Shown here: positions 8,081-41,303 of the stretch, in pieces
Numbering within the stretch: the stretch's first letter is position 1
Layout: every line of letters begins with the position of its first letter
From: Agrocybe praecox
Taxonomy: Eukaryota > Basidiomycota > Agaricomycetes > Agaricales > Agrocybaceae
DNA: 64,000 nucleotides
Assembly: GCA_964017145.1 (NCBI GenBank)
Contig: OZ024850.1
Coordinates: 1,465,618-1,529,617, forward strand
Reading direction: 5' to 3'
Translations under genes and position numbers: made by a program
Notes under the pieces: generated by a model
Database searches by the model: none
Told to the model about the DNA's origin: nothing
Seen by the model: the letters and a program-made list of their open reading frames with translations, nothing else

Positions 8081-8480
8081 CCCAGCCATAGCAGTCACAT
8101 TTATACATGACACCTTGCTTATTACCCAGCACTAACCATATATCCTAAATGGAACCTGCCTGGTGTGGCAGTTTCCGTGGATGTCCTTTTCCGTCTGGTT
8201 GGATATACATGGACAAACAAAATATTTTTATTTTGGCCTCGGTGGTTGTTTTTTTGTGTATTTCGCTTATTTACGATGAAAACATTGATGTTTTCGGTGC
8301 GGAAAAAAGACATATTGAATCTATAAATATATTCCGACATATTGGTGTTGTTTCCCTCACAATAAAACATACAGAAAGGGTGGATTGGCGAGATGGATTT
8401 TGGATGACGTTCGAAAATAAATGAGTAAACACTATTTATAGACTGACCTCGGTCCGAATAATACACGTGGCATCAGAGCG
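8081..8480. repeat. Left terminal region of element A
   Basis: Inverted diverged counterpart of 33440-33840. Starts CCCAGCCATAGCAGTC directly after the dispersed repeat at 7681-8080. The remaining 110 bp to the KDZ-A stop codon hold no gene. Confidence 0.68.
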
Positions 8481-8645
8481 GCGGCTGTGCAACTAATATT
8501 AGTAATATTCATGAATTATTCTAGGCAGAGGGATAGAAAAAAAGCAGCACAAAAAGTGATCAGAAAAACGGCGGGAAAGGAATGGTGAAATCAGTCCTGG
8601 AGATCGTCTTCATCCAGGGCTTCTTCATGAAGGCGCTCGTACTGA

Positions 8646-8677
<32 letters not shown>

Positions 8678-11600
8678 TTCGTCGTGGTCTTCCTCGCCGT
8701 CGCCGTCGTCCCCTCTTCTGGCTGTGGTTTGCGAAAATCCATCTGGACTGCCTGTTTCATTTTCGGAAGGATCTTGTACCATTTCATGTAATGGTTTGCT
8801 CCACAGTTTCTGGAAACGAATTGACAGGGACCGTTGTATATTTGCTTGTCTCAATGCGAAGGCTTTCCTTCCTTCGATGAGCTCGGGGGATCCACCAATG
8901 TCTTGATTAGCCATCGTCTTCCATTCATTGGCTTTCCACTCGAGAAACACCAGGACTCGGCGCATTTCTTCCCTGAGTAAAAGGACCTCTTCTCGGCTTC
9001 TTGCAGCTCGTGCGCGGCTTTTCGCCCATTCGGTTCGTAGGATATCATCAGACCCATCTGAATGATCGACGTTGTTGGTTAACCATATCCACGACATCGT
9101 TCTACGTGTCTCGCCGGTGCCGTCTCGTCGACTTCGTACTTCATTGAAGAGGGAGAATGTATCACTCTCTCCCATCGCCGTATCTTCGCATGCTCGCATT
9201 GAAGAGGATGAATGAGTAGAACTTGCTGGGTCGTCGTCTTCAAAGATACCTTGTCGGCCTGGTCGCGGACGTAGACGGTTTGGGTCTTGATATGAGCGAA
9301 TGTCCCCGTCCTCCAGCAATCGAAAGTCCTTTTCCCAAGGCCCTGGACCATCTAGCAATAATCTAGCCTTTCTGGCAGTTCGATACTTCTCGGCTGCTGC
9401 TCTTGCCCGTTCATGAACACGATCGATGATAGCGCGTGATCGGGTTCCGTCTCTTTGACCACGAATGTTTTTATTTTTGAAGGAAACCATTCGGCTTTTT
9501 ATCTTGAGGATGTGGCGAACGTTATCCAAAGAATCACTGCACTGGGCGATGCGAAGACGACTTTCAATTTTTGGTAAACACTCTATGCAGACGCGGTTTC
9601 GTTCACTTGAGGGAATGTCAGAAGGAAGCCATAGTTTGATGTCCTCTGGCATAGAATCCAAGGAATTAGCAAGGGAGTTGGGTAATGTGGATTGGTAGAG
9701 TAAGAGGCCGGGCATATAGATGGGATGTAATTGCTGCCAGGCACGAATGCGAGTGCGGAGACAATTGTGTTGCTCAACGAGAGATCCTTCTGAGCTAGAC
9801 GTACTTCCTGACGTCTTACTCAGTCGCTTAAGTCTGCGTCTTGAGTGCGAATGATTAATGATGCCCAGAATTTTCGAATAAAATTACTTACTGCGAATCT
9901 TCCAAGTCCAAAGCCAAAGAAATAAAACCTGCGGCACTGGTTGTGTGCCATGAGATGCCTCCTTTGCGGATGCGCTCCTCTTCTTCATCGCCGAGCTCCT
10001 TCCTCACTTGCTTCTCAGTTATAACTGTAACGAGAAAAGATTAACCAAAAATAAAAAGTGAAGAGCGAAGAGCGAAGAGCGAAGAATGGTACACGTACGA
10101 AGATCATCATTCTGATAGGGATTTTTGGAGTTTTTTGGAAACTCCTCTGAATCCCATTGTGCACACATCATCTCCCAGTTGGCAAGCAATGCCTTATTCT
10201 TCTCCAAGTCTGCAGTGCCATTGATCGTTTGCTTGCGAATCGAGTCAGAAAGCCCGCGATGCGCTTCCACTTGTAAATTTCTTTCGGCGACTGCTATTCG
10301 GTACTTTCGCGCCAGAGTGAGTCCGATTTTTGTATATTTTTCCCAGTTCCAAAAATTGAAGTGGTCGTCCAATACGTCGTGCCTGGACCCTGGGCTTTGA
10401 GACTTCGTACAATTTCCAAGGGGGTTATGAGGGGCCCATACACGTTCTGGGCATTCGCAGTCGGACTTGCCAACACCAGGTATAAAGTTGAGGGAGTAAA
10501 CTTGATGATTCGCGGTTCCGTGCATCGGTTCGTGAAGTTTGGGGATAGCCGGTACGAGCTTGGTTGATTCAGGTATTTTGATTTCTTCGGGCCAATGTTC
10601 GGATATTCGCTTGTGTAAATTGACGAACCATTGGCATGAGATGTCGTAGCTAATCACGACGTTTGGCACAAGAACGAAGCGCATGGCTGACCCAAAAACA
10701 TAATCCATATTTGCGTATCTAATGAAATGAGTCAGGTCGATTTGCGTAACGTGAAAATTCTTTACGTACCTTTCACCCTTCTGCAAGTTTCCTACCGCTT
10801 GAGGAAGCAACATTTCTGATCGACCGCATACCGCAGCCCCAACCCCGGTGTAACGCAATCCATGGGAGAATTTCGTGTTTGCCTTTGCAAGAGCTTGAAG
10901 TCCGACACAAGTACTTATCTGAATAATAGAATTAGCAGGTAAAACAAGAAAGTTCTTCAATTATGATACACACATCGTCGTCGTTCGCCCTACTCAAAAC
11001 ATACCGCTCGTACGGCCCTCGATCTATCATGAATCCCCACCCAATTCCTAGCCCAGGATCCTGCGAGTAGTTGGAAACCAGTTGGTTCTTGAGTCGAAAG
11101 TTCGCGTCCATACATATGATAGCTCCGTACAGAAATCTAATAGGTGTGATTAGTATATTTCGAAAGCGTTGCGATGAGTAACATACCTGAGTTCTGGGCT
11201 AATTGACTGCCAGTCCACAGGTAAATTTATGAGAGGATAAGGGCAAGATGGACATCGAAGGGCCAATTCGCCATTTTGTGTGCCATTTGCGCCGGTCTTG
11301 TCATTTGCCCTCCCTCCCCGTTTCAACAGCTTCAAATGCCGCCACTGAAGGTTCATCCTCATCAAAGACTTGTATCGGTATCTTGGTTTCGATAATCCCG
11401 TATTATCCGATAGCTTTTCCAGTGCCCGATAGAAGTCGTACGTCGATGCTTTTGTCGTGAGGGAAAACATGTGAAGTAGTCGTAATAACGAGAAGGAGGC
11501 GCAGGTCCTGACTACAACCTGGGAAGCTGGGTATAGCCCGCGTCGAAGGAGCTGGAGGTGGTGAGGAATAGCGCGACTGCACCCACAGTATTGGATGGAG

Positions 11601-12265
11601 ACGTTATGAATTCCATTCGTGTGTAGGACCAGCATTTGCGAATGACAGCTGATGGGGTTTTCGCAGTGCAAGCTACCGTGGTTTAGTTGAAGCTTGAAAC
11701 CAATATCTTTCAAAGAGATCCGTTTGAACGTCTGCCCATCCCAGTGCTTCGGAGAGAGTAAGTACAGGTCACAAAAAAAAACAGGTAAAATCATACCTGA
11801 ATCCAATGCAAGGGGTGAAGTCTATGTCGTCGAACACAACACGTTGCACATAGCAGATCCGGGAGGAAGCATTCTAAGCACCTGTATTGAGGGATTCCGG
11901 GTGTCATAGCCTTTCGAGAAACACAGTCACTGCATTGGTTTGAATATAAGAAATCCCCTCGTCCGTCCATACACGTCATTTCCTCTAGATAGGACTGTCG
12001 ATGAAGCGTCTTCCAAACGACGTGAGGGCGACGCTGTAGAATCGTGAGTGGATATTTCGATGAATATTTGCGCCTGCTTACCGATAGGTGACTGTTGTGC
12101 TTCCTTTTTCTCCTTTTCGGAATCAGCTGAGGAATGGATATTTCCTCGCCAATGTTCGCCGTAACCGCTTCATCATACCACTCGCCATCTGGATCGAGAG
12201 CGTACTCCGGATCGTCAGGTGTGATCCATGTTGTGGAATTCCAAGTTGCAGCCTTGTATGGCAGA

Positions 12266-12801
12266 TTGATGTATCAAATCCGGCAAAAAGTACATTTGGT
12301 GATACATCATAGTGGGCAAGTTCCCACCCCGGCAGCGATGTATTACGCTCACAGGGTGTGCCGCAGGCCATCAGAGGCCAGAGAGTAGTGGGTCTTGGTA
12401 AATACTAACAAACAACCTCATTTTGGGCATTCCCAACCTGCAATTAAGCTCTGCAAGCGTAGTGGTTGCGTTTTGAGGGCGCTAAAGCCAGATATGTGGT
12501 CTATTAATATTTTATGATTTTTTTAGGGTCTTTGCGCGCCTAAAAACGGATGGGACGGGATGGATTGGCGCGGATGACTTTGGATGACGTCTATAAATAT
12601 TGTGCATAGGCGTAGCGTTATATTTAGCTGTCCGCTATTAATAAATGATCTTTGATTGATCTACATGGATAATCTTATCTAACAAGCTATTTATACCGGT
12701 CTGGACCTTTGCCACAGCCCATCAATTGACGTCACAATAAAACATACCTTTTTCGGTATCCCCAAATTGGGCCACTTATGTTTTCCGCAATGCTAATTAT
12801 A
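12266..12801. repeat. Element B left terminal inverted repeat
   Basis: 536 bp, inverted match of 25339-25874. Contains GGATTGG and TTTGGATGACGT blocks also found in the element A ends, so the two element families share terminal motifs. The interval to 12893 is spacer before the HMG-like stop codon. Confidence 0.92.
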
Positions 12802-12893
12802 GAGACTTATTTCGGTGATAAAAGGGGCTATAAAATGATATATTTGCATCGCGAAAAAGCAGTATATACGTAGGGGGATAGACGACAAAGATT

Positions 12894-15304
12894 TCATTCG
12901 GCGGATTGGGTGAAACAAGAAAAGATGCGAAAACAATCATCTACGTAGAAGGACCAACTGGCATGCTCGACTCCACCCAAATCCGTTGCAGCAATTCCCC
13001 AGTAGAACAAAGCCACCATAATGGTCAGGGTGCCATTAGGTCCAGATTTACGGAGCATATTCCAATCGCCCTTAGTCTCGGAAAAGTTGATATGTCCATC
13101 GATAACACGCCACGGAGGTTGAAGCAGCGTGTACCAGTCGATGAATGTCTTGGTGAACCTCTTGTAGTTGATTTTAGGGCAGTAATTGGCGTTGCGATGA
13201 CGTTTCATCCAAATTCCAACCTCCTCCGGGCGATTCTTAGCGGGTAGCGCGCTCGTTCGATCCAAGGCGTCAAAGGTTGAATGAGTGAACCATGCGTCGA
13301 GAAGTAGGCGCCACTTAGGCCCAAGGTCCACCGATTCCAACGTTTCCATGCCTTTTTGCAACCAGGGGATCGACGATGTCCTTACGAGACACAAATCGGA
13401 CGAAGGGGAAGGAACATGGGCAGCAGGCTTAGTAGAAGGTGCAGGGGTGGATGTGCGTATCGAGGCCAAAGAAGAGGGGTCGTTAGTGAGGTTCGAAGAG
13501 GGAGTGATTAATGGCTCGGGGACTCTGAGTCGCGCCCGTTTCGAAGGGTAAGAATGTTGCGATGCATCGGTTGAAATTGCGTCCGAGGTCCTCTTTGGGG
13601 CATTGATGATGGGCGGACTAGCTGACGAAGGAGAGTTCGTGGCCTGGGTACCAGATAGTTGCGTGGCCAAGGGGTTAGAATTAGGCAACGCCGTTTCTAT
13701 GCCATCATTCAAGTCCGTAGTTGTGGTAGGTGGCGAAGACAACTTTGCAATCTCTGATCCTGGGGCTTCTGTTGGCAGATTGGCAGCGACGATCCTTGGC
13801 GAGTGCATTGGGGTAACGTTCGGGGTATTAGGGCCAGACTGAAAACCGGTATGTGGTACCTTATATATGCTGGGTGGAGTTGTCATTGCCGAAGAGTCCG
13901 TTAAAGTATGCGAAGAAGATTCGGAATCCATTGAAGGCAATGAATCCTCGTCTTGGGGAATGTACGGCGGAGGTAGGGAAGCGCGGTCGTTGGCCAAGTT
14001 GGAAGGTACGTCCGTGGTTTCAGCAGGTATGGCGTCGACGTTGACATTGTTGTTGTCCAGATCCAGATCCAAAGCCAAGAGTGACAGCTCCCCTTCTCCC
14101 TGTTTCAAAGCTCGAGAACGGCATTCTTCGAGGCCTGAGTGCAACCGAAGTCAGAGTCAAAAACATCAGGAGAAAGAAAGAGAAACTTACTGTAACACTT
14201 CTGCAAGAAAGAACCAAATATGGGCACGATGAAATGTTTGTAACGATGGCGTTCTGCTGTCCCAAAATTCATCTTAATATCTCCTGGTATGGTGCCGGAG
14301 TGGATGCTTTCCCAGTAGTTAGATAAATACAAAGAAAAAAGAAAAAGAAAACATACCTGATCATGTTAAGTTTACCGTTATGCGCCGGCTCAGGGCCTCC
14401 TGCGAGCAAAGACAACTTCCAGCCTGTTGCCTCTGCCACCATGTCCAAGATAGGTTGGCAGAAGAGAACCATCCCCTGAATAGCTCTGATTCATGTCATT
14501 AGAGATTGAGATTACACATATTTAGATACAAGACATACCTTTGGCGATCTTCAGGAGAAGTCGAAACGGCCGTATTGTGTTCCTTCATCCATTTGTCCAT
14601 ATCCCTCTTGTGCTCTGCCTCAGCTTCGTTAACCCAGTGATTTTGTTCTTCTTCAGTTAAATTGCCAAACATCTCCTTCGCAAATCTATCCCGGAGCGCT
14701 GCGTAATGCTTCTTGTCGAGATTATGGGCAGAGGAGTAAGCCTTGACTCGATTTTCGATTGCCTCACGGTGGGAACGGCGCCATACGTTGGAAGCAGTCT
14801 TGCGACGAGGGCGATTCCCTTCTTTTCCGAGGTACTTCTGGAAGAGTATGCGGTAGGGGCCGTATGCCCCAGAGTCCTTTGAACTGGGATCGTGGTCTTT
14901 CATATATTGATAGTTCATCCACCGTTTGATTTGCTTGTGTAACATAAGGTAAGTCACATGATCTCTATATTTGGTAATCACAGACTTACCCCTTTCCGAA
15001 GTTGAATGAGTTTCTGACGAGAATCGTACTCGTCCATTGCTTGCTTATGTTCTTCAGGTGCTAGGCCATCTGCGTACGGAGGTGGACGTTCAGGATCCGG
15101 ATCGTCATCGTTGACAGAAGCCAAAAAGTCGGGAGTCGGCTCCTCGTCGTGTGGTAAGTCAACAGGGAACCGCTTGAAATATTTGCGCTGAATCAAAGAC
15201 AGAGCCTCGCCGGCATAATTGTCTTTAACAGCTTCAGCGTATGCATCCTTCTGGCTTAGAAGGAATTCTTTTCTAGATCCACGAAAGGTCCCCGGATTTG
15301 GCAT
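12894..15304 (-). CDS. HMG-box-like companion protein of element B, 626 aa
   Basis: Five exons on the minus strand: 14990-15304, 14539-14933, 14357-14485, 14191-14306, 12894-14134. The first four have the same lengths (315, 395, 129, 116 nt) as in the element A homologue. The N-terminus has a conserved motif (FRGSRKEFLLSQKDAYA, IQRKYFKRFPVDLPHDEEPT) seen in a large family of unnamed agaricomycete proteins. Residues about 130-215 resemble an HMG box (NVWRRSH, LRDRFAKEMFGNLTEEEQ, HWVNEAEAEHKRDMDKW). Next is a conserved block ATGWKLSLLAGGPEPAHNGK and IKMNFGTAERHRYK. A Ser/Pro/Thr-rich disordered region follows, then a C-terminal Trp-rich block (WRLLLDAWFTHSTF, FIDWYTLLQPPWRVIDG). DNA binding is inferred from the HMG-like part. 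Confidence 0.78.
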
Positions 15305-15939
15305 GGAACGCGAATTGGGAAGGCAGCAAAGATGCGACGGGATATGAAGGACAGAGGGGAAAGCGAGTCTGAACTTGGCAGAGCGTAGCCGTGAATGGAT
15401 TGGAGGGTTAACCAGAAATGGTGTGCGTACGTATTACCTCCTCATCTTCAGGATTCATGGCTTATTGAATGTATGGTTTGGGATCCTAGGATTTTTTACC
15501 ATTATGTTCGTATCCGATACGCCGTGAACGCAAAACGATGAGACATCGGCAAACGTGTACGTACAAACCTCCTTTCCCTTTCTAGAAAAATAGTACTGAA
15601 CCCCTTGTCATCGTAATATCTAGTTATTTTGAATGTGCACGCGCCTGTTCGTGCCGACAATCCATTCGCACCGCACCAGACTCGCTAAACAAGTTAGGGC
15701 ATCGTCAATGGTGCGTGAACACAGTATATGTAAGCTCCGTTATATTATGAATGTGTTGACTGAATTATATTCTCAACCCGCGGACACTATCTAGATTTAT
15801 CACCCCTCCTCAAAACAATAAATCGAGATCGCGTCCCTCTACGCGTAATCATAAAAGGTGGCTTAATCGTTTTATTTGACAGCACTTTCATACCCCAGCT
15901 CTTCATTTACACCCAACTTCACTTCATCAACCTACACTT
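15305..15939. promoter_or_regulatory. Divergent intergenic region between HMG-like and hybrid-binding-like genes (element B)
   Basis: 635 bp between two divergent start codons. No coding sequence. The same head-to-head arrangement exists in element A (29966-30502), suggesting a shared promoter. No specific factor site is assigned. Confidence 0.45.
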
Positions 15940-18209
15940 ATGGCTCATAAGAAAGGTAAGTACCTTTGTCCTTTGTTTCAATAGTCTCTTCAATTGACGA
16001 CATTTTAGATCCCAAAAACACGTCCAAAGGCCCCGGTACTAGTAAGTTATTCCATACTCTAAGTTCCTTTAATTTTGAATTTTATTGATGTTATTTTACA
16101 CAGATACCACTGCAGACGACCCCATGGACGTCGACATTTCTAACGGCAATCGCTCCGAAGGTCGTACCACCTGGGTTGTAATTGCAGACGATACCCTCAC
16201 CATCATGGAGCACGAGGAGTAAGTATTATACTCTATCTATCCGTGGCTAATAAACTAACTACTGCATGTTATCCAGACACGTTCGGCGCCTCGATGTCAT
16301 GTCGTATAGGTGTTTCTGCCTCTTGCGATTTGACACTCGTGAAGAGGCGGCTGCCTATTACGACGGCGCGCTTTTCTGCCGCATGACTCCCTCGTCCACC
16401 CGTCTCATTCCATCCGCCATGGTTCCCAACTTCCAGGTCGCCGACCGACGCCTCATCGCCTCCGATCCTCAGGACCAGGGCCAGGATGGGATACGCCAAG
16501 CAAACAAAAAGCTTGTTGCTGCACCGGGGGATCACAGAGAAAACCCCATCGTCCTCGATACCCCTGCAAAAGTTCCCTCTGCCCCATCCGTCCACGCTCG
16601 CTATCGTCGCATGCTGGCTGCGGCTCGTACCGTCAGTACACCCACTCCTGCTTCTCGTGATACAGGAACGGAGGCTTCGCGTCGCAGCCAACGACTCATT
16701 AACTTTGCGTCTGCGGCCACTTCGTCCAAGGTTGCCGACGCCTTGAATGTAAAGAAGCCCGGCGGCGGCATTGCTCCAAATGGATCAGCGCCCCCTCGTC
16801 TTCTACCTGCTCCTTCTATCTCTGCCCGTGGTCCTCGTGCTGCCCGTGGTCCTCATGCTGCTCGTCAACTCTGGCCTATTCCTGCACGCAACACCTTTGC
16901 CCCGGTATGGATCGAAAGCGACTCCGATTCTGAAATCGACTCCGAAACGGACGAAGAACTCGGAGATCCGGCCCAGGACGGACTCTGCAAGCGCTGTGCG
17001 CTTCAATCGACCCTCCCTTGCCAAAATGCAGGGACGCGATGCACTGGGTCTCGACAGGGTCCTACGAAACCAACAAAAAGAACACCGGCACCCTATTCTA
17101 CGGCAATAACAACGTCAGCAATTACACCTCGTGCAAATAAAGGAGCCGAGGAAAACGCAGCTCCAAATGGCAAGGTTTCAAACACCTCTGCCAACACTTC
17201 TGCACCGAATTTCCCATCGTCTTTGGTAGACCCAACGCTTTGGGAACCGAAGAAGGTCAACAGCCGCATCCTAGCTGCTGTCGACGCTTTGCCGCTATCT
17301 TCTCAAGCCCCCCCTGCCAGACATCCTTCTGCCCAAGCCCCACCTGCTAAACTGCCTTCTGCGTCTGTCTCCGCCCCACCTACTCGCGCTACCAAGAACC
17401 GACCAGCCAGCCACTCAACATCGCTTCGAAGGATTCAAAATGCGAGTCTCGGCAAGAAGACGAAGATCATTCGCAAGTACTACTCACCTTTGTACGAAGA
17501 CATGCCTGAAACAGCGCCGTACTCCGAGTTGGAGGTCACCGACGAGGATACTGACAACGACGATGTCGACAAGGAAAACAACGCCAACGCCAATGCCACG
17601 GACAACCAGCAAAGACAGCAAAAGGGCAAGGGCAAGGCCTCCGTAGAGGATGATGACAACACTGACGACGCTATGAACCTGCTGAAGCGCAAATCCCCAT
17701 CCACTCCTGTCAATCAACAAAAGAGACGACACGTCGACCAAAGCCCTGACATCCATGACTTCAATGCAATGCTTGAGGAGGCGACAGCGACACCCGTACC
17801 GGCCGTGCAAGCTTCTTCCACGCGTACTTTCACTGCCACAGACTTCGCCCTCGCGCCGTTTGCCTCCAGCTCTTCTGCACCTTTGTCCGTCGCACACATC
17901 ATGGCTCCCTTTGCATCCGTCTCCTGTCCATCAACCACAGGCTCTTCTCACAACCCACCACTCCTGCCATCCCCATTGTCACCTGCTCTTCAGCCCGCCC
18001 TTCCTCCTCCACCTTCGACGCTCCTGTTTATTCCACCCCCACCTCCCCTCCCAACTTCTCAGCCGCCTGCGTACGGTTCTGCACCCCCACCTCCGTACAC
18101 CATTCTCGCAAACCAGGCGGATAGCATGATGCTCGATATTGGCAGCGATTTCGGTGATCTATCAGACATCGACCCCTCTTACTTCGACGATATCGCCGAG
18201 TTAAACTGA
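15940..18209 (+). CDS. Disordered companion with possible RNase H1-N (hybrid-binding) module, element B, 698 aa
   Basis: Four exons in consistent phase: 15940-15955, 16009-16041, 16104-16218, 16277-18209. Residues about 35-85 read TTWVVIADD ... VRRLDVMSYRCFCLLRFDTREEAAAYYDGALF. The pattern W-V-V, then V-...-F-x-T-x-E-E-A-x-x-Y-Y is like the small N-terminal RNA/DNA hybrid-binding domain of RNase H1 (also called Cauli_VI), and the element A homologue shows it better. The rest is disordered: Ala/Pro/Ser-rich, an acidic patch (SDSDSEIDSETDEE), basic patches (KRKSPSTPVNQQKRRH) and a proline-rich C-terminus. Divergent from the HMG-like gene, tail-to-tail with the 99-aa gene. The domain call is a hypothesis. 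Confidence 0.68.
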
Positions 18210-18473
18210 GACGCCTCAGAGTTCCTCAATTCTACATTTTCCGGTTCATTGTCTGCCCACTTTCCATCTCTATGCATTATGTTTAGAATATGCCCTACGT
18301 CGTCGTCCTATATGCTATACCTTACAATACATTATATCTAACCTAATTACAGTTGAGGCGATGTTTTTTTACATTTTATTTAGTTCTCAATGGAATGTTT
18401 TTTGCGCCTCTATATGTCATATGAGTCATTTATTGTTTAATATTTGACATGCAAAACACGAAGGTGAAGTTAT

Positions 18474-18984
18474 TTAGTCCGAGTCATCCTCCAGAGACAT
18501 GAGCCGCTGGTACTCTGCCTCATCTCTTAAGATTTCAACTTCCTTTTTCTTCTTTATTCTGCCCGTACAAAAAAACATAGATTTAGGGAGAATGGCATTA
18601 TGTCGATAGTAGTAGTACTTACCTGTATTCCACCTCCTTTATTTGCAGCCTTACTCGATTTGCCTCGCAGTATTTGGCTTGTGCCTGACGATGATGCTCG
18701 CGTTTGGCAGCTAAGTATTCCCCTGAGTATTGCTCGATCGCTTTCCTGTAGTTTACACAATTTTTACAAGCAGTCTGTCATGATTCAGTGTATTGTAGTT
18801 AATATAACGCGCTTGTTTGCTCGAATCCTTGCGCACCTATGTTCTTCGTATAAGTGGCTAGTAAATATCGCACTATGTTATTAACCGTACTGCGTGAAAG
18901 AAGAAATGCTTACTCGTAGTAATACTGACGACGCCTATTGTTACGAATGCTACGACGAGCTTCTTCATGATGATTTGACTGCAT
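18474..18984 (-). CDS. 99-aa charged coiled-coil-like protein, four exons, element B only
   Basis: Exons 18914-18984 (71 nt), 18837-18857 (21 nt), 18623-18745 (123 nt) and 18474-18558 (85 nt) join in phase into 100 codons ending TAA. The product begins MQSNHHEEARRSIRNNRRRQ and is rich in Arg, Lys, Glu and Tyr, with heptad-like helices (EYLAAKREHHRQAQAKY, VEILRDEAEYQRLMSLEDD). All three introns have GT and AG ends. It is too fragmented to appear as a single open frame. It sits between the hybrid-binding-like gene and TET-B; no counterpart is visible at the equivalent place in element A (28204-28598). Function unknown. Confidence 0.62.
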
Positions 18985-19344
18985 GGTTTCTTTTGGAAAT
19001 GATAGAAGTCGGGTGGAAGTGAGAAATCGAAGTTGAAATTAAGTTCAACTGCGTTCCAATTAAGGAATTTGAACTTGCACGCAATTTCAACTCGTGAGTA
19101 AATTGGGGGTCATTGCAAGGTCATTGCACCAATACTATGCTCTTTAAATTATAACAGATGATAAGCTTACATGCACGAAAAATTATTTATCAAATCATTT
19201 GAGGCGAAAGTAGGGGATTTATATGTCTTTTTTGAGTAGAAATACTTCGATGCCGCCACGAAATCACCACGGAACACTATCAATTTATTTTTAGACACAA
19301 GGTAGTATATGAAATTCTAAGTCACAAGAACAATACGACATATT
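18985..19344. other. Intergenic spacer upstream of the 99-aa gene
   Basis: 360 bp between the start of the 99-aa gene and the TET-B stop codon. I see no gene or repeat in it. Confidence 0.4.
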
Positions 19345-25157: not shown

Positions 25158-25338
25158 GGTATTCCGTGCACATATGTACTATGTTTTTTTTTTGCAAGTT
25201 TGTAGCCCTCGTCTTTTTTACACCTTTACATCACCTTCATCTTGGTATCTTCCTCCTCTTCGTACCGTATTTGTTGTTCTCGTGCTTGGTACAGCCTGTT
25301 CTGCTATTTAGAATAAATGTGTATGATATGTTTTGTGT

Positions 25339-25874: not shown

Positions 25875-26064
25875 GTTGGCTTCAAAGGGTGCAAGTTGTG
25901 CTGCGCTGCGGCGACCGTTCCGTACGAGAAACATGACCTGTACTGAGTGTAGTTGCTTCGCTAGCATGCACCAGTCCGTAGTCATCCTGGGATATTGGTA
26001 CAGAGTCGCGGTACGCATGTGTTATTTCTTCAACTCGACGGCGTTTCTGACGCACTTGGGACAT

Positions 26065-29965: not shown

Positions 29966-30502
29966 ATTTGCTGGAAAAAAGATTGTGAGTGTGCTCCCTA
30001 TTTATTTATTTTCTAGAGTCAGGGTAGACGTACCGGTTAAGTTGTCCGTTCCAGAAAGTTTTTCCGATGGTAGTATAGTGCGATCCGTGTATATGGTCCC
30101 CGTCGGATTTGATTTGACGTACGCGTTCCCCGTTGTACTTGATCTAACGTACACGGTCCCCGTTGTGCTTGATCTAATGTGTGGGTCCAATGTTGGTATA
30201 GTGCGATCCACGTATGTGGTCCCCGTTGTGTTTGATTTAACGTACTCGGTCGCCGTTGTGTTTGAGTTAACGTATGGGTGTGGGTGGACCGACATTGGAG
30301 AACGGCAATGTCCGACATGATAGGCGTATGCTCTGTAAAAAAAGATCATAATGAATATATATCTCATACGTTGGTCATACCTGAGCTTGAGCGAGTGAGG
30401 ATAACCCATTCTCGTGAACCAATCCCTCCCTAATTCCAACCCAACCCATCCAACCCAGCGGCCCATCCCGTCCAATCGCTTGTTGATTCTGCAAAATAAA
30501 CA
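29966..30502. repeat. Divergent intergenic region with a 30-bp minisatellite (about 30085-30285)
   Basis: Several imperfect tandem units of about 30 bp built on GGTCCCCGTTGTGCTTGATC followed by TAACGTA. The repeat lies between the divergent hybrid-binding-like and HMG-like genes of element A. It keeps an open frame on the minus strand (SSTTGTVYVR-type decapeptides), so it could alternatively be a 5' coding exon of the minus-strand gene. Confidence 0.55.
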
Positions 30503-33161
30503 ATGGTCAATCCGGGGTCTTTCAGAGGAATGAGGAAGGAGTTCCTATTGAATGAGAAATCGGGATACGCACGCGCTGTCCAGGAAGGTTACGCCGCCGA
30601 CGCCTTGGCCAGCATCCAACGTCGTTACTTCAAACGATTTCCTGTCGATTTGCCACACGATCAGGATCTAACGGCGGATTTTCTTGCGAATATCAACGAG
30701 AGTGCGGCAGACCCTGAGCCCCAAGTCCCAGATCCGAATGCTTTACCAGCGGAGGAATATGTTGCAGCGATGAAGAAGTTGGACGATAGACGCAAGACGA
30801 TAATCTATCGCAAAGCTGTGAGTGTCACGTCACCATATGTAACAAAAGCACGTGCTTACCGTAAATCAATAGCAAATCAAAAGGTGGCTGGCTTACCAGT
30901 ACACGAAGGATCGCGACCTCGACCCTAAGGAATCTGGGTCTGAGAATCCATACCGAATTATCATCCATAAACTCACTGGCGTTGGCATCAAGAAACCTCG
31001 ACAACGAAGTGCGGCCAATACTTGGCGCAAGACCCAGGCTGATATCATCAACACGGAAACCAGGCGGATCGCAAAGTTGGCGAATACCAGACGTCAGGAC
31101 TTGGCTGCTTTGCGAGACAAAATCGCGCGTCAGTTGTTCGAAAAGCTCGACAAGGAGGAAAAGGAATATTGGGATGCTCAAGCCAAGGAAGACCATCAAG
31201 AGTTGATGGCCAAGTGGGAGCATGATACCACCCTTCCGCCATCCACAGAACCTGCTGATCGTCAACGGTGAGTTTGTCGTCTATTTTATAAAAGATTTTT
31301 TCTAAATTTCTCCTTGTTAAGATGTATTCAGGGCTTAGCTGGCTTTGCAAAGCCCATCCTCGACCTAATCTGCGAGGCGACTGGGTGGAAGGCAACACTT
31401 ATTGCTGGAGGGCCGGAACCTGCTCACGAGGGGCGACTCAACGTCATTAGGTACGTATTTAGTATGCACCCTCGTCATGATACATGTTTTAACGATACTC
31501 GTAATTGAAGCGTTCATTCAGGAATGACGTTAGGCGATATGAAGATGAATTTTGGCAAATGCGAACGCGCGCGTTACAAGAAACACATCATACCAACTTT
31601 TGGATCTTTTTTACAGCTTTGTTACAGTGAGTATGCTACTTTAAATATAAAAAATCATTTCTCATGTACATTGACAGCCCCGTCCGAATGCAAGTCCCGT
31701 GCTCTACCCCGGGAAGATGGATTTGACCCCATGATTACAATGGAGACAACGGAGGATGAAGGTGTCTTTATTGACATGTTCGAATCCGTTCCCGCCAGTT
31801 CACCCGGCCATCGTTCACCGACTCCAACTTCAGCTACATCTCAACATGCTCCTCAAGGCGACGTTTCGTCTTCATCAACAGTCATGGCGCTTCCGAAACC
31901 AACCGTATCGCCATCGCCAAGCCCAAGTCAAATGCCACCGTCATCCTCACACGACACCTCTATCGTCAACTCATCCCCAATGATCATCGCGGACAGCAAC
32001 TCACCATTACAACAGACTATCTCGGAAACTCAGTCAGGCGGCCCCATAATTCGCACTCGATCCCCATCGCTGCATTCAAGTCGGCCTCCGTCACCTCGTT
32101 CACCACCGCGTCCCCTAGCATCTATTTCTTTCACCCCAACCCACCCTTCATCCCCCCTCGAACAAGGCTCGTTTCACACCGATGCGCGTTCAATTCGCAC
32201 TCGATCCCCATCGTTGCATTCAAGTCGGCCTCCGTCACCTCGTTCACCACCGCGTCCCCCAGCATCTATTTCTTTCAGCCCAACCCACCCTTCATCTTCC
32301 CTCGAAAAAAGCTCGTTGCACACCGATGCGCGTTCATCACACCCTTCCCACCCTTCATCTTCCCTCGAACAAAGTTCGGTGCACACCGATGCACGTTCAT
32401 CACTCCCTTCCTCACCTTCTCGTAAGCGCAAACTGGATGCTTCCACGTCATCTTCCGTACAAGCTACAAAGCGTGCTCGTAGCGACTCGCGTTTGGGATC
32501 GGTGCCAGCATCGAACGCCGTCATTGTGCCGCCCTCTCTGCCAATTCCTCCAGCAAACCCTCCGAAATCTTCATCGACACCCTGCTCTCCAACCCAGCCC
32601 GCTGTCAATTCTACCACATCACTGGTTGACTCTGGTTCGAGCTCGGTTTCCTTACCCACACCTGCAAAACCTACAGTCGAAGCTCCTCTGTGGTTTCAAT
32701 CGGCTCTTTCATTGCTCAAGGAGGAGGAGATTCGCCTCGGACAGGAATGGACGGACCTTGTGAGCCTTTGGTGCGCTTTCGAAGAGATGCATTCGTATCA
32801 AGAAACCAGCCGCTTGAAAGCTCAACACCGGCCTGTTGCTCTCAAGGATTGGATACAACGAGCACGGCCAGGACTTTCTTCGTGGACGCCCACTATCACA
32901 AATCCAAAGAAGTACGAGGATGACTTCCTGCGATGGTATCATGCCTTACAGCCAGAATGGAGGTTAGCGAAGGGGGGTAATATTATTCCCGCGTTGGATG
33001 GCGATTGGGAACCCCTGAAAAGACCAGGGCTTAACGGCCTTCTTACTGTCGTAGTCGGTTTGCTTTACTGGGGCTCGGTTCTCAAGAAGAAGGACACAAA
33101 GAAGTGGAAAAAAACTGTATTAGATTTCACCTTTATTTTGCAGAAATTGACCACAGCTTAA
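30503..33161 (+). CDS. HMG-box-like companion protein of element A, 812 aa
   Basis: Five exons in phase: 30503-30817, 30873-31267, 31322-31450, 31511-31626, 31678-33161; the first four match the element B gene in length. Conserved parts: FRGMRKEFLLNEKSGYARAV, IQRRYFKRFPVDLPHD, an HMG-like segment (NTWRKTQADI, LRDKIARQLFEKLDKEEK, YWDAQAKEDHQELMAKW), ATGWKATLIAGGPEPAHEGR and DMKMNFGKCERARYKKH. Two acceptors use AAG rather than CAG/TAG. The long Ser/Pro-rich linker contains a 144-bp direct duplication (near 32050-32195 and 32194-32340). The C-terminal Trp-rich block (WYHALQPEWRLAKGG) is shared with B. The gene appears intact. DNA binding is inferred. Confidence 0.78.
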
Positions 33162-33840
33162 TTCGTCGTGATTTCTTTTCTTCGCTGTCTTTTGTCATCT
33201 TTTTTTAATTTTCATTTATCTTTTGGTACGCGTTACTTTGTTAAAGTACATTATATATAGGTCTAATTAGTCTACATCTTGGACTACTTTTTGGAGCTCC
33301 CATAAGGTGTATATTCTTGTCCCTAATATATGATATTTTTACTGTGAAACCGTGTATATTTAAATGTCATGAGTTGCCAAATATGGCAGTCTCGACCAAT
33401 AGACGTGGACATATCCGAGATACCCGAGGTCACGCCGCTAAAAGAACTGAGACTTAGGCCACGCTAAAAATAATTTGGACATCTGAATAAAAATAGATTG
33501 TAACCGGCATGTTTTCGAACGTCATCCAAAGTTGGGACGTTCAATCCACCCAATAATCACCTCCTATGCTGGGGCAAACATATCAGATATGTTTCAATAT
33601 ATTAATAGATGCCATTTGAGTTTTTTCGTGGCCGAAAACAATCATTCAGACATATAATGGCAGAAATTTCAACGAAACGGCCCAATGTGAGGTTGCACGT
33701 CTATATTTGGTATAAATTCCAAAGATAAGATAAGATAAGCCGTTGGGCAGTTTGCACACTTGGTAGGCTCCATCCTGGATATATCATAGTGTACGGCAGG
33801 TACCAAGGTATGATATATGTAAGGGACTGCTATAGGTGGG
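33162..33840. repeat. Spacer and right terminal region of element A
   Basis: About 33440-33840 is the inverted, diverged match of 8081-8480 (shared TTTTCGAACGTCATCCAAA, CAATCCACCC, AATATATTAATAGATGCC and terminal GGGACTGCTATAGGTGGG). The rest (33162-33440) is AT-rich with no gene. Confidence 0.68.
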
Positions 33841-33918
33841 TGCGTCCGTGGTATAGGTTCCCAGGTTTCTACAGTGTAGGGATAAGATGAAGAAAAAAAA
33901 GCATGGCGAACTGCTCAC

Positions 33919-34770
33919 CTTTGTTCCACCGCCGTGTGATATACCCATACTCATAGCTGGAAACTGACCACGCCGATGTTCTTGTGCTTTCTTTGGAAAT
34001 TTACAACGTGCGGCCGACCTGTGAACAGCCTCAAATGCACCCTCCGTGACCTCATCCCAGTCTGTGTCCTTTGGTTTCCCGAGTAATGCGACAACAACCC
34101 TCGATTCACCGTCGAGAATTGGAAAGGAATTTCTGTGCAGGTGGGTGAGTTCAATGGTTGCAATGCTGTTATAAAAAGCAACTTACTTGCTGTCCCATTT
34201 GATGAGCTTAAATCTGCGCTTTCCCAGAAGTTCCTTTAGCCCACAGACGGGACCCTCTTCGTCGTGTTTAGCCACAAAACCCGACGATGCAATTGGTATT
34301 TTAGCTGTATCAAATTCGGTTTTTATTGGTATAGCGGCTGAGATGTGATTTTTGAAGGCCGATGAACTGCCAGGATATTTTTCTTCGCGTTCTCTCTGCC
34401 GTTTCAAGTGACGAAGCTCGTGACTTTTTTTTCGCTTTCGAATTTGCTGGTTGGTCTTAGATTTAGACGGCTCTGGAGGTGGCTGAATGGAGGTACTGGG
34501 AGTGCCATTTGAAGGCGTTGGCAGACGCACAGGTGAGGCGGACCTCGAACGTGTAGGAGATGTCGGTACAGAGGAAAGGGGGGAGGATCCATAGAAGAAA
34601 CAGTATTCCTCCTGTAATTGATCCTGAGCAATGGAGTCCGTAGGACCTAGGTCGAGGGACGCTAGCAGTCTTTCGTTAAGAATACTTTGATGCAGGTCAT
34701 CTTGAAAGGAGAAACTTGGATCGTTCGAGCTCAGAGCATTGGAGGGATCGAATTCAAAATTAGAAGGCAT
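33919..34770 (-). pseudogene. TET-C: N-terminal fragment of a TET/JBP dioxygenase
   Basis: Two exons, 34187-34770 and 33919-34132, give 266 residues ending at the donor after the SHGGGTK motif. They match the N-terminal and linker parts of TET-A and TET-B (SPLSSVPTSP, basic RKRKKSHELRHLKRQRER, GRR-FKLIKWDSK, HRRGQFPAMSMGISHGGG). Everything carrying the metal ligands is missing: within the following intron the sequence runs into the end of element A at 33840. No C-terminal half was found to the left of element A, so this is a deletion or rearrangement rather than a clean insertion. Confidence 0.8.
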
Positions 34771-35195
34771 GATACGGCGGGTATCAGCATCTACAAAAAA
34801 GATAAACGGCGAACGTTAGCATCCATAGAAAATGCAGAAAAGGAGAAAGAAAAAAGAAAGAACAAAAACTCCGCCAGTCCTACCAATGCAATAGCTCGTA
34901 TCCCCGGGGTGCCAAGTATTCGAGCCATCACATAGGTGAAGATGTAGGGAGGAGCATCAAGGAAAAGAGGGAGGGTTAACGTTAATTACTCACATGAAAG
35001 CCTCCAGTGCAAACGATCAACAGATGGCGCCCAGTAGTATGTTCAACTTGTTGTGTAAAATCTAAAAATATTATGTAATCATGTCACATGCTCAATAATG
35101 ACGTCAATTAACCGTTGTGCTGCTGGAAGTTGAACGTTTCTTACCGGTAACTAATACTTGATAAATATTCCTTTCACTTCCATCCTTGCACTTCC
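34771..35195. promoter_or_regulatory. Divergent TET-C / KDZ-C intergenic region
   Basis: 425 bp between start codons, same layout as in elements A and B. No coding sequence seen. Confidence 0.45.
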
Positions 35196-38192
35196 ATGTC
35201 TTTGAGGCCAAAAAAGCGTGCCAAAACTGTGTATTATGACCGCATACCCCTCGTAGATGACTATGAAATCGTTCAAGCCCGTTCCTCCAGGTTGGATAGT
35301 CAAAACGTAACGAAGAATTCCGCTCGTTCTCCTTTAAAAGGACGAACTACGTGGTCGATTGGGGATGATTGGGCGCCAGTAGATGACTACGAGTTATCTC
35401 TTGACGAGTCTGGTGACTGGTATGACGAGGAAATCCAGGCAGACGTATGTGATAGTAGGGTCGGTCAGGCTCAGCAGAAGCGACCCAAAAAGATTCGCGT
35501 CCGAAGCAGGGTATCGGTGAGTCTCAGAGTCCTAATTCAAATGAAGTATACTGACCACACCTCCGTGTTATTAGATGAGACCACACATCGTTTGGAAGCA
35601 GCAATATCGAAGTCAATATCTCGACGAGAACCTGCGATGGGAGGGCAGAGGTGATTTCATGAAGGATGATGTTTGCCCCAATTGTGTATCAAGGGGCAGC
35701 ACAAATCCTCAAGATGCGGAATATCGGTGCCAGGAATGCTTTGTCCCCGATCTCGTTTGCCAGGAGTGTTGTATTAGGAGACATCGGCAGAGTCCTTTTC
35801 ACATCATCGAGGTAGGTGTGATACGAATGTGATATATCTGTCTGGATGCTCATTTTTTGCTAGCATTGGGTGGGGACCACATTCATTAAAGTCTCATTGA
35901 AGTCTCTCGGGCTCAAAATCCACCTCAACCACGCGAGTATGCGCTGCCCAGCTCCAATCGAATGCCACCGCAATTTCAAGGTTATACATACAAACGGCAT
36001 ACACGAAATTGGTATTAGCTACTGCGGCTGCACTCGAGCTATACCCAAACACCTTCAGCTCCTCCGACGCGGCCTGTATCCTGCATCACAACGCGTCATA
36101 CGGACGTGCGTCACCTTCCCTCTACTTCGATTTCTTCACCTCTTATGCCTATGCTCTAAGGTATCCATGTATGACATATACGATACTCTCGAGCGTCTAT
36201 CCAACAACGTCCCAACGAAGTCATCGACATCAAGATATCGGTCTTTGATGCGGATTAGCCTACAGTGGCGGCATCTCAAGCTTCTCAAGAGAGCAGGGAG
36301 AGGACACGACGATTCGGGGGTCGATGGTACCAAAGACGGCGAACTTGCGATCCTGTGCCCAACATGCCCGCACCCTAACATCAACCTCCCCGATTCCTGG
36401 ACGAATACGTCACCTGAGGATGAGTAAGTACTACATTTCCGATACCTTGCTAAATTCTATATGTTGACCAACTGCATTAGATTTCTATACCAATCCATAG
36501 TATGCATGGACGCCAATTTTAGATTGAAAAACCAACTGGTGTCAAATTATTCCGCAGACCCCGGCTTGGGAATTGGCTGGGCATACATGATTAGAAGGGA
36601 GCCGTATGAGGCCTACGTTATCAGTCGGGCTGATGACGCCGACGTAAGTTTGATTTTCACTTTTGAGACACTGCTCAATCGCGTTGCAGATTAGTACGTG
36701 TGTGGGCTTTCAGGCACTGGCCAAAGCTTTGACGTGTTTCAGTCGAGGCCTTCGTTATACCGGTGTCGGAGGGACGTTTTGTGGCAGAGGCGAAATGTTT
36801 TTGGCAAATGGCGTAGGGAATTTGCAGAAGGGTGAACGGTAAGAGGCATTTGTTTAGCCCCCTTCTCTCTCGAAATTTACTTTAATTGGTAGCTACGCAA
36901 ATATGGACTACATTCTTGGGTCTGCTCTACGCAATACCCAGCTGAAATCCATTCTCATCAGCTATGATATTGCGTGTCAGTGGTACAAGAATTTCGCCGA
37001 GCGTATGGAGACTCAGTGGCCAGAGGACTTGCGCCTCAATTCGAACGTCAAAACTCGCCCTGTCATTTCGAAATTTCACGAACCCGCTCACAACAAGAAA
37101 GATCACCAGCAATACTCCTTCAATCTAATCGATGGTGTCGGAAAAACGGATGGCGAGGTTCCTGAGAGAGGTTGGGCTGGGCATAGCGGTCTTGGAGGCT
37201 CTACTGCAACTTTGTCACTGGGCTCGAGGCACGATCTTCTCGACGACCATTTCGGTTTTTGGAACTGGAAGAAATACTGCCTTATGGGTGCGTCACACGT
37301 ATCTTGTAAATGTGCTCTTTTCTAAATCGTTTATTTACACCAGGTCTTACTCTTATTCAAAAACTCAAGGACGCCATAAGCGAACGAAACCGCCAGTCGG
37401 AAGCGCATCGAGGATTCACCAACGACATCAGAAAATCCTCCATCAAAATCTGGGAAAAGATGTGCAGGGACTGGGATAACGCCCCCTACCCTAAGTCATG
37501 TACTAACCCATACAACGTTGAGGGCGCGCGAATCACCGAAGCGAAAGTTAGGGAGTCGTTGGCTTGTGAGGAAAAGGATCTGCTGTCAAACGGGCAACTG
37601 ATGCTCCATGCAACTGGCCCATCCGAATTTATTTCAATGGGTTTGGACCTGGAGGACTCTCAGTAAGTCTTTTGTCACTGTAAATTACTTCAACACATTC
37701 GCTAATTACTTATTTAGACGTCGTCTTCGAAAGCTGGTTAACCAACAAGGGAAGGTCCCTACTACCTTGCAAGACACCTCCGTCAGCGACCAGAGAAAGA
37801 TCCTTGCAGCCAAGATTAAGGCCTGGGAACTCGTCCGTGCCGTATACCAGCCTGGTATTCTCCAACTCCAGCTTGAATCTAACGGCAGTGGGCCCACAAA
37901 CTGGGATAATCACCCAAACCCCAAGGAAATCGAACTGTGGCTACCCTCGCAAATTCCAGAAAGTCGTCGAAGCAGCTCATGCGCTGCTGGTCTCGTTGGC
38001 GTTGAAGAGAAGCTACGCGTCGCTCAGTGTTACGACGCTCTCGATGCTCTTCGCAGAGCCCTCCGCATAAAGACAAGAATGGTTTATTTCCGGAACAAAA
38101 ACATTCGCGGTGAAAGACGATTTTTCTGTCGGTGATTTATGCTTTGACAATCACACAAAACACAACCAACAACAAAATCCAGAGAAAGAGTG

Positions 38193-38243
38193 TGTCAGGG
38201 CAACACTAAGATCAGTGTGACAAGGCCACCAACAAAGACAAAG

Positions 38244-38279
<36 letters not shown>

Positions 38280-38668
38280 AAAGAGAAAGAGACACTCAAT
38301 GGTTCTAAGAGATCACACCAATGATAGTGGATATCCTAAGAGATTGAAGCTGGGGCTACAGCTACCTACATGTCCAGTATATATACCCTACAACTATTCT
38401 AGAATATTCCTCTATGACATCATAGAAAGGAATGATGAATAAGGCAATGATATCATAAAGAAAGTAAAAGAATGATGTGGAATGATGTAGAATGGATGAG
38501 GCTATGCTCATGGGAAATTAAAGTGATAAGTATCTAATCAAATGATAATCAAGAGATAATCAAGAGATAATCAAAGATATGAAACAGATAAGATATCTAC
38601 ACATCTACAAAAGGGAAAAATGCGAAATAAATATAGAAAAATAAGGAAAAATAGGGGAAACCCTGACA
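38193..38668. mobile_element. Solo LTR (476 bp) with 5-bp TSD GAGTG
   Basis: Begins TGTCAGGG and ends CCCTGACA (8-bp inverted tips of the TG...CA type) and is flanked by GAGTG at 38188-38192 and 38669-38673. A (GA)n microsatellite lies inside at about 38245-38276. Typical of an LTR left after recombination between the two LTRs of a retrotransposon. It is nested within the insertion in KDZ-C, making it one of the latest events in the stack. Confidence 0.85.
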
Positions 38669-39532
38669 GAGTGGGCTAGACCTAGATAAGACGACTCTCT
38701 CCCTGTGAGTTCAGGGGTGGGAATAAAGTTACTTCGTTCCTAAGAAAGGTTTGTTAGTGTAAAGATCGTATAGGTTTGTGATGAGCTTTTGTCCTAGACA
38801 AAAGTTTGAGATCGAATAAGAGAGTAGAAATCAAAGTGAACGTGTTCCACTTTGAAATCAGAGCAAACGTCGAAAAAGAAGAGAATAATCGAAGCTTGGA
38901 ACATTTTCCAAGCTATAGAATTGACTGCCGAGACTGAGAATTGACTGAATGAATACTGAACTGAAAAATAGCTGCTTGAATCGGTACAATTGTCCTATGA
39001 TAGGGGTGTACTTCTTGTCTACTTTACAGGATCTAACTAGCTTTTATACTACAAATCCTGCAAGGCATGAGTAATCAATGACAAGTAAGGTTGAAACGAA
39101 TGACAAAGAATAAGGGGTTAAATGAATAGGCTGACTGAGCGAGTGAGTCAGTAATGACAAAGGAATGGGCTGAAACGATGGAAAAGAAGGAGAAAACTGT
39201 CCATCGCTCGATGAAATGACTAAGAAATGAATAAGAATGAGTAATAAATAAAAAAGTTGACTAATGCGCAGCAAAGAATGACCAAGCACATCTTCTTGAA
39301 TGATAAATCGATCATAGTTGACTTGACGATTAGTGAAATCGACGGATGGAAGGAATCGAGCTATTTCCAGCTGATGGATTGCTATATTTGGTGAATGTAA
39401 CCTTAGCGTAGCCGCGTTGTTGATGTATCAGTTCCCGTGACTCATAGTGACTCGTGATAGGCATGTGACATCGAATCATGTGTTTGGAATGATGGTTGCA
39501 CAGCCGCTTGATGGCCTGGGCTTTGCATGATG

Positions 39533-40093
39533 TCATCGAAGTCTTTTAATAGAGTAGATGGGATGCGACGGATTTAGATAAGTGGTGAATATGCTGTGCC
39601 GTTGTATGATGTAAGCGTAGGCATATCTTATCTTCTGTGTGATGCTGAGGGACACTTGTGATCGTGGAATAGCAATGCGTGGCCTTGTGAATAATGCTGG
39701 TGCCGAACTTCTGGTTGTTGATACTGCGAAAACTATGATTCCTCGTTCGTAATGCATAATTTCCTCGAGGCGAATGATTTTGGGCGTGTCGTCCGGCTGA
39801 ATTCTGTATGTGAAACTGACGGTATCTCCTTCTTGAAAAATATAATCCTCCGTGTAATGTGTCGCTAACCAATTTTCGCAATTTTCGCTTGCATCAAAAA
39901 CTCCGGCAATTTGAATGAATGGATATATTGACGCTTTATTGATTTTTCGAGGTCCGGAAGAATTGACGACATCCTTGGATTGTTGAACAAAGGAAACAAA
40001 GGAAGTGGAAGACATTTGGTAGATTTGAACGCGTAAGACGATGAACGTTGAGAGGAAGGAGTGATTTGTCTTGGATCGTGGCGACGGTTTCAT
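39533..40093 (-). CDS. Unrecognised open reading frame inside the KDZ-C insertion
   Basis: 186 codons; a more likely start is the internal Met of MSSTSFVSFVQQSKDVV, giving about 160 aa. The central part (NWLATHYTEDYIFQEGDTVSFTYRI) is fairly well formed. No family recognised. It may belong to the inserted element. Low confidence that it is expressed. Confidence 0.3.
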   Translation of the reverse strand: MKPSPRSKTNHSFLSTFIVLRVQIYQMSSTSFVSFVQQSKDVVNSSGPRKINKASIYPFIQIAGVFDASENCENWLATHYTEDYIFQEGDTVSFTYRIQPDDTPKIIRLEEIMHYERGIIVFAVSTTRSSAPALFTRPRIAIPRSQVSLSITQKIRYAYAYIIQRHSIFTTYLNPSHPIYSIKRLR

Positions 40094-41303
40094 GACTTTA
40101 GCCTAGACTGAATAGATTTCGGAAGAATTGGTGCCTTAATGTTGCGATAGAGCCGTGATGGGAAATTAAAATGGAGAATACAAAAAAGGAAATATTGAAA
40201 TTTAAAAATAAACGAATGATCTCTTATGCAATTTCAGGTTCGTTCATGTTCAATCAAATATGATGCATGACAGCGGTCAAACTCAAAGTACGTGATCCCG
40301 TGCTTTAATAGATAAGGTACATACTCGCGCCCTAGCAGCAGTCGACAAATACCGTGCTGCAAGGGATGCGAAACTCCGACTTTCGGGACCAGGAGAATGG
40401 GAGGATGTTCTGAGACCACTGCTCAACGCCGACGTCAGAAGTTACGCGGATCCTGAACGAAAGAAAACTGGTCCAGGAAGACGGGGGATTTGGGAAGATG
40501 GACAAGTGCAACAAACCACCGTGCAGGAGACTGTAGAAGAAGAGCAAGGCGCGTCCGATGCCCATGATGAAGAGGGCCACGAGGACCACGAGGACCACCC
40601 GTCTGACGAAATTCCAGTCATCGAGGCTGCACGCAGCCGTTGTGACGGTACAGGCAGGACCACTCAAGTAATATCGTGGATTTGGATGAGTTTGGGGAAA
40701 AATAGCAACAACGTACGAGCTGAAGCTTCGGCTGGAGCTTTGGACAACAGCATCTCAAATATGTCAACTGCCCACCTGACCGAAGAGTCCGCGCCGGACC
40801 AAGAAGACGACATACTGCGGGCTGAATGGGCAAGGAGTAGGGCTCGAGTGCAACGATGTGAGGAGGAAGTCAGGTTGTTGAAGGAGGAAATGAGGCGTCT
40901 CCTTGAGTTCCTGAAGTGGAAGAGTGAATGGTGGGATGCCCGAGCAACTCTGCGACATACGGAAGATGCTGCCTTGCAAGAGGGGTTAATTTCATATGCA
41001 GAGGGGCAGGCTTCACTCCAACGTTTCTTATCAGCAGACTTCAGAAGGGTTTGGAGGACACTGCTGCGCAACATTCGTGATTCAAAGTCACAGAGGACTG
41101 AACTGCCAGGTGGTGCTGCTGTGAATACCCAATTGAACAACGGTGGCGACAACGATAACGACAGTGACGGCGACGACAACGACGATGATGATGACGACAA
41201 CGACAACGACGATGAGCAAGATAGGGCAACCGGCAGGGTTCAAGACTCTCACCCTTCATTTACAAACAATTATTTTTTCATTCACATATTCACGGGACGG
41301 TGA

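Follow-up and report, generated by a model that had tools for sequence, protein, structure and literature searches.

Gene content and stacking of the elements

The analysed window comprises 64 kb (G000:C11:1465618-1529617) of the 59.2-Mb genome assembly (347 contigs) of Agrocybe praecox. Six-frame self-comparison of the window revealed three genes each for KDZ and TET (one TET gene being a fragment) and two HMG-like genes, distributed over three cassettes designated A, B and C:

8083-33838, minus strand: Kyakuja-type element A, split by B (12249-25891); from identity to a copy on contig C2 and end motifs
8591-12248, minus strand: KDZ gene of A, main part (CxC2 and KDZ); KDZ match C11:1475963-1476364, CxC2 match, homology to B and C
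12242-12248, no strand: left target-site duplication (TSD) of B, CAAGTTG; site present once in the C2 copy of A
12249-25891, plus strand: element B, complete; CA..TG ends, inverted ends of ~540 bp
12894-15304, minus strand: HMG-like gene of B; five exons of 315, 395, 129, 116 and 1241 nt, 731 aa, open
15940-18209, plus strand: slot gene of B; 698 aa, resemblance to hybrid-binding genes limited to a motif and an intron position
18474-18984, minus strand: small basic gene of B; three exons, 92 aa
19345-21040, minus strand: TET/JBP dioxygenase gene of B; HxD..H..R kept, 449-aa model starting at 20794, 5' end approximate
21360-25157, plus strand: KDZ gene of B (CxC2 and KDZ); compared exon stretches open, 947 codons
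25892-25898, no strand: right TSD of B, CAAGTTG; from the sequence of B's flank and the C2 copy
26590-28203, plus strand: TET gene of A; three exons, 498 aa, open
28629-30000, minus strand: hybrid-binding-like gene of A; outer limits approximate
30503-33161, plus strand: HMG-like gene of A; five exons of 315, 395, 129, 116 and 1484 nt, 812 aa, open
33839-41736, plus strand: element C, truncated on the HMG side; from homology, KDZ-side end GGCTG at 41736
33919-34815, minus strand: TET fragment of C; homology to A and B
35205-41129, plus strand: KDZ gene of C; homology to A and B
38118-40312, no strand: insert of about 2.2 kb in the KDZ gene of C, boundaries approximate; from a break in KDZ homology

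All three cassettes were confirmed, and the gene order and strands given in the initial annotation were reproduced, including the divergent TET and KDZ genes of C, though C is truncated in TET. The cassettes are stacked as described there, except that A and B are not adjacent: B is nested in the first KDZ exon of A, the rest of which, judged by eye, is located at about 25899-26064 beyond the right end of B. A near-identical, uninterrupted copy of A on contig C2 (G000:C2:382657-394752) matches the two halves of A at 99.7 % and 99.5 % identity. This copy carries a single CAAGTTG, and the two half-alignments overlap by exactly 7 bases; the insertion of B into this KDZ exon therefore duplicated 7 bp, and one member of the family has jumped into the transposase gene of another. 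B starts with CA and ends with TG directly inside the two CAAGTTG 7-mers, and its inverted pair (12242-12801 and 25339-25898) matches at 551 of 560 nt, the duplication and imperfect outermost bases included.

Element A ends with CAGCC at 8083 (KDZ side) and GGTG at 33838 (HMG side). A matching target duplication is absent for A in the window and for the C2 copy, though both end points are common to the two. The left neighbour of A is a host-gene fragment that recurs at 50426-50839 and the right neighbour is the TET gene of C, which makes a rearrangement at the borders of A in the window likely. C is cut off inside its TET gene at the right end of A, and 100 nt at its other end (41736) share 81 % identity with the KDZ-side end of a different, complete element. 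Host-gene fragments (amidohydrolase-like by eye) flank the stack at 7673-8082, 41.7-42.6 kb and 50426-50839, two of which share one stretch up to the start of A.

In the KDZ genes, PF18758 was found in B and C, and the genome search located PF18758 together with PF18803 at all three places; a KDZ transposase domain with a CxC cluster, as in Kyakuja, is thus present. The identical KDZ exon lengths initially reported hold for four internal exons of B and C (237, 560, 163 and 149 nt); those of A measure 237, 545, 163 and 149 nt, the 545 hinging on an ambiguous acceptor. For the HMG-like gene, the shared exon lengths of 315, 395, 129 and 116 nt were seen as reported in A (30503-31626) and B (15304-14191). 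The TET/JBP residues H53, D55, H106 and R117 are common to A and B and invariant in 24 homologues, corresponding to the HxD..H and R signature of 2OG-Fe(II) oxygenases. Pfam Tet_JBP matched the TET protein of B below the cut-off (E=0.007) and 8 of the 24 homologues at E<=0.05 (best 1.2e-6); the Pfam search gave no match with the TET exon of A alone, nor did comparison of TET with solved structures yield one.

Structure prediction supports the presence of an HMG box in the HMG-like protein: a three-helix fold is found in the predicted structure of a homologue, and the predicted fold of residues 139-226 resembles TFAM/Abf2-type HMG boxes. Unlike these, the HMG-like protein is longer around the box and lacks a Pfam HMG match, none of 65 homologues matching this family at E<=0.05.

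Two further regions of the window were noted. A separate stretch at 1689-7667 with 43-nt inverted ends (88 %) carries an open frame of 674 aa that includes CxC5 and CxC6 domains, representing another KDZ-associated gene type. At 46515-48295 and 48964-49752, 126-nt tandem repeats occur in a TPR gene beside a patatin-like fragment (seven register copies, 60-84 % to the reference), possibly an NLR-type gene.

Element ends and miniature elements

Ends were defined by an exact 7-bp duplication, CA..TG termini, CAC at one end and CAGCC at the other, and a match at 7 or more of 14 end bases. This rule was satisfied in 6 of 13 oriented loci (C11_2581, C13_2117, C282_8, C5_2462, B and C278_25) versus 1 of 156 mismatched left-right pairs, the end motifs having been learned from the same elements and CA..TG being a search condition. 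When the CAC/CAGCC condition is dropped, the test becomes weak (8 of 13 versus 36 of 156). Locus C2_3461 has a duplication with one mismatch. In the seven elements with ends, the matches of the HMG, CxC2, KDZ-core and KDZ C-terminal queries all lie between the ends, and those of TET do so in six; C278 has full ends and no TET match. In these elements HMG and TET were thus not encountered outside the ends, a finding which would have spoken against the cassette reading of the initial annotation.

Within clade-B elements the inverted ends are near-identical (C5, 99.8 % over 481 nt; C159, 99.6 % over 536 nt), and those of B and C5 differ from each other by 14-18 %. Other elements have short, imperfect inverted ends, and none were detected in 4 of 12 loci compared. 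The 7-bp TSD and the CA..TG ends agree with Kyakuja; the absence of terminal inverted repeats (TIRs), which applies to two Laccaria families and is not treated as defining, does not extend to B (about 540 bp) and C5 (481 bp). Judged from their transposase domain, CA..TG ends and, for B, the 7-bp TSD, A and B are classed as Kyakuja-type.

The same end motifs delimit a miniature element:

62563-62674 (62556-62681 with TSDs), plus strand: miniature element of 112 bp with the same end motifs, TSD CTGCACA

A second 112-bp copy (L046) has the TSD CGCGGCA. Searching the genome with the 112-bp element retrieved twelve paired ends, eleven of which are 0.78-0.82 kb and one 1.37 kb apart. TSDs were read in 12 stretches (eleven pairs and one further 112-bp copy): 8 are exact 7-bp duplications and 1 differs at a single base; in 1, which is partly masked, the five readable bases agree, and 2 are unreadable. 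Seven long copies (~800 bp) with exact end motifs are 94-98 % identical. From these miniature elements, the ends alone would evidently be enough for movement in trans.

Linkage and constraint of the companion genes

The arrangement HMG(-), slot gene(+), small gene(-), TET(-), KDZ(+) is repeated across the genome, and the listing of clusters shows it many times, with exceptions. The searches yielded 129 CxC2 matches (98 of them above 100 bits, termed strong), 61 TET matches (59 merged), 91 matches of HMG exon 1 (88 merged), 99 of the HMG C-terminal region, 31 of the B-type slot gene (22 merged) and 8 of the A-type. These counts are lower bounds, only the best candidates having been scored, and some contig ends that look like mirrored duplicates (e.g., C1 and C4) are counted twice.

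An HMG-like gene lies within 12 kb (either query) of 69 of the 98 strong CxC2-KDZ genes; in 62 cases the nearest one lies 5' of the CxC2-KDZ gene on the other strand, in 7 it is arranged otherwise, and in 29 there is none. The nearest TET gene within 12 kb has the expected layout in 41, another in 7 and is absent in 50, and the corresponding figures for the hybrid-binding-like gene (5' side and same strand) are 22, 4 and 72. Upstream of these 98 genes, both HMG and TET are found in 35, HMG only in 32, TET only in 10 and neither in 21, HMG thus being commoner than TET (67 versus 45). The claim that the companions travel as a fixed set therefore stands for order and strands, which recur, and less strictly for membership: no TET was found upstream of 53 of the 98 CxC2 genes, and the slot is variable. 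TET is missing from two elements read, C159 and C278; its detection relied on one query, so that TET losses may be over-counted.

Viewed from the companions, 67 of 88 HMG-like loci are located within 15 kb of a strong CxC2 match, where about 3.9 would be expected by chance; the stack in the window is thus no chance arrangement, and the companions do not occur mostly away from KDZ-TET elements. Among the 12 TET loci without CxC2, 4 have HMG near. The companions could nonetheless be passengers, i.e., host or other mobile genes that cluster with KDZ in repeat-rich islands, and both the 21 HMG loci farther than 15 kb from any strong CxC2 match and the nested copies, which show that elements pile up, would suit this explanation. 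It is rendered very improbable by the fixed order and strand, the position of the companions inside duplicated ends, and the weak-CxC class of KDZ genes (n=31), which has hardly any such neighbours (HMG near 3, TET near 0). Moreover, 13 of the 21 distant HMG loci still have TET, the hybrid-binding-like, slot or small gene within 12 kb (8 have none), and the dN/dS values of the HMG and hybrid-binding-like genes (0.16-0.26) indicate constraint.

Pairwise dN/dS values (Nei-Gojobori, bootstrap intervals with all upper bounds <0.4) were as follows:

B and C159: KDZ 0.13, hybrid-binding-like 0.26, HMG 0.21
B and C5: KDZ 0.08, TET 0.12, hybrid-binding-like 0.23, HMG 0.19, small gene 0.20 (0.08-0.39)
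A and C282: KDZ 0.04 (dS saturated), TET 0.20, hybrid-binding-like 0.24, HMG 0.16

In-frame stops in the compared targets number 1 in C5 HMG, 2 in C282 KDZ and 3 in C282 TET. Where measurable, the KDZ, TET, HMG, hybrid-binding-like slot and small genes are accordingly under purifying selection (dN/dS 0.04-0.26). Since selection keeps the companions intact, they are very probably parts of the transposon rather than passengers, and the proposal of the initial annotation that they function in it gains support from order, ends and purifying selection. Protein constraint would look alike if the companions served the host, e.g., as domesticated epigenetic regulators retained for that reason. Such a service is hardly to be expected of genes that exist in dozens of diverged copies at scattered sites, with a near-identical pair for A, strong matches for B on contig C12, and copies broken by nested insertion.

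The gene occupying the slot differs among elements. In A, an RNase H1 N-terminal-like domain is encoded on exons at about 28629-29234 and 29297-29465 and matches Cauli_VI with E=0.001 and 19.7 bits (cut-off 21) over profile positions 2-44 of 44; C2_3461 matches with E=0.014, from a peptide with an uncertain exon joint. No Pfam hybrid-binding domain was detected in B-clade slot exons, B included, and the slot gene of B has an intron position similar to that of A and a TREEA-AYY stretch. The hybrid-binding assignment is hence weaker than that of the HMG box and would hold for part of the copies. In another clade the slot contains different plus-strand genes, and the version queried from C278 is, at 11 of 11 loci, separated by 824-973 bp from HMG exon 1, which is on the other strand. 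BLAST groups C278 with C10_2381, and C1_1267 with C13_2117 and C11_178, and found no link between these two groups or from either to the hybrid-binding-like gene. By these comparisons, the hybrid-binding domain appears as one of several slot occupants. The small gene, initially described as an extra 99-aa gene of B, is present, but comprises 92 aa in the present model and is not extra: it occurs at 17 loci. At 15 of them a same-strand TET gene is no more than 6 kb away (at 14, no more than 0.9 kb); the remaining 2 (C159 and C24) adjoin the hybrid-binding-like gene in elements without TET match. It is a recurrent fifth gene.

Such variability raises the possibility of a loose modular assembly, in which KDZ and HMG would form the actual core, the TET, slot and small genes being cargo swapped between elements by recombination. 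The predominance of HMG over TET upstream of CxC2, the full ends of TET-less C278 and the slot versions unlinked by BLAST point in this direction, as does the comparison of A with C282, where dS amounts to 2.8 for KDZ and 1.5 for HMG versus 0.34 for TET and 0.21 for the hybrid-binding-like gene. TET and hybrid-binding-like genes being far more alike than KDZ and HMG in this pair, A and C282 have exchanged the TET-hybrid-binding-like middle. Across 12 elements, however, the distances of KDZ, TET and HMG show correlations of 0.91, 0.92 and 0.95, in each case higher than in any of 5000 permutations, so that exchange is exceptional; TET and slot genes are also constrained, and TET losses may be inflated by the single query. 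Modular assembly is therefore regarded as possible, though clearly the less favoured explanation.

Taken together, fixed order and strands, 7-bp duplicated CA..TG ends, selection, co-diversification and near-identical copies elsewhere indicate with good confidence that A and B belong to the Kyakuja-type KDZ DNA transposons, move by cut and paste, measure 12-14 kb and carry a conserved companion set.

Possible functions and relation to known systems

In such a transposon, the KDZ protein would cut and join the element ends. The HMG-box protein might bend DNA, thereby pairing the distant ends or opening element promoters, and TET would oxidise 5-methylcytosine on the element, countering silencing. 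The slot protein, in copies keeping the domain, may bind RNA-DNA hybrids or double-stranded RNA and perhaps mark transcribed copies; the small basic protein is perhaps an adaptor or nucleic-acid binder. As HMG is present where TET is absent, HMG is probably nearer than TET to transposition proper. That all five proteins form one transposition and anti-silencing apparatus, in which the slot protein recognises nascent element transcripts and, with HMG, recruits TET in cis, is a speculative and rather unlikely extension; if true, demethylation would be targeted to the element's copies in cis rather than genome-wide.

DNA transposons that bring along a demethylase provide a natural setting in which to study how mobile DNA evades methylation. 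TET, a constrained HMG-box protein and two recurrent genes constitute defined parts that are testable singly, and the results suggest that the transposase is accompanied more constantly by HMG than by TET. For a mobility assay, the miniature elements of 112 and 800 bp could serve as minimal substrates.

The nearest public relatives of the HMG-like protein are from Galerina, Agrocybe and Pholiota. Pairing of HMG and TET in other fungi was read off plainly from species, contig and locus tags shared by the tables of public homologues (104 for HMG-like, the best 120 of 476 for TET). The agaricomycete-wide survey suggested in the initial annotation thus covers HMG and TET only, for which, among the best 120 of 476 TET matches, at least seven small contigs (<=50 kb) carry both genes: three of Gymnopilus dilepis (13,032, 13,760 and 13,665 bp; neighbouring tags CVT26_006140/1, 001499/500 and 000663/4), and those of Pholiota molesta (35,850 bp), Pholiota conissans (30,090 bp), Agrocybe pediades (11,105 bp) and Galerina marginata (46,208 bp; tags 148715/148719). 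Both genes also share a large contig in Hypsizygus marmoreus (tags 015378 and 015383) and one of 135,913 bp in Panaeolus papilionaceus (tags 1535568 and 1535577).

The linkage of KDZ and TET is already published. Iyer et al., in PNAS in 2014, reportedly described it and KDZ elements encoding additional proteins, among them one with a divergent HMG domain; the HMG linkage is therefore not claimed as new. In the parts of PMC12477816 available, the same study is cited on the accessory genes that fungal KDZ elements carry; HMG occurs in the reference list only. The word HMG does not occur in the main text of the description of TET-carrying Kyakuja (Kojima 2025, PMC12730594), and the literature searched contained no other descriptions tying KDZ, Kyakuja or JBP to HMG.

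Among known systems, KDZ1-3 of Cryptococcus neoformans are likewise mobile KDZ elements (9-11 kb, TIRs of 139-241 bp, TSDs of 4-8 bp), but possess CxC1 instead of CxC2, and the transposase gene alone is named in the portions consulted (PMC12810828). Closer are the TET-carrying Kyakuja of Agaricomycetes, which according to the sections seen share the KDZ gene beside a TET/JBP gene, the 7-bp TSD and the CA..TG ends, are of the AG type, and for which TET is also argued to counter methylation (Kojima 2025, PMC12730594). The two Laccaria families reported there are without TIRs, whereas the TIRs of the present elements measure 481-560 bp in clade B and are shorter in other elements. Compared with these systems, and as far as checked, the five-gene order, the slot and small genes, selection on the companions, module exchange and miniatures with the same ends are new.
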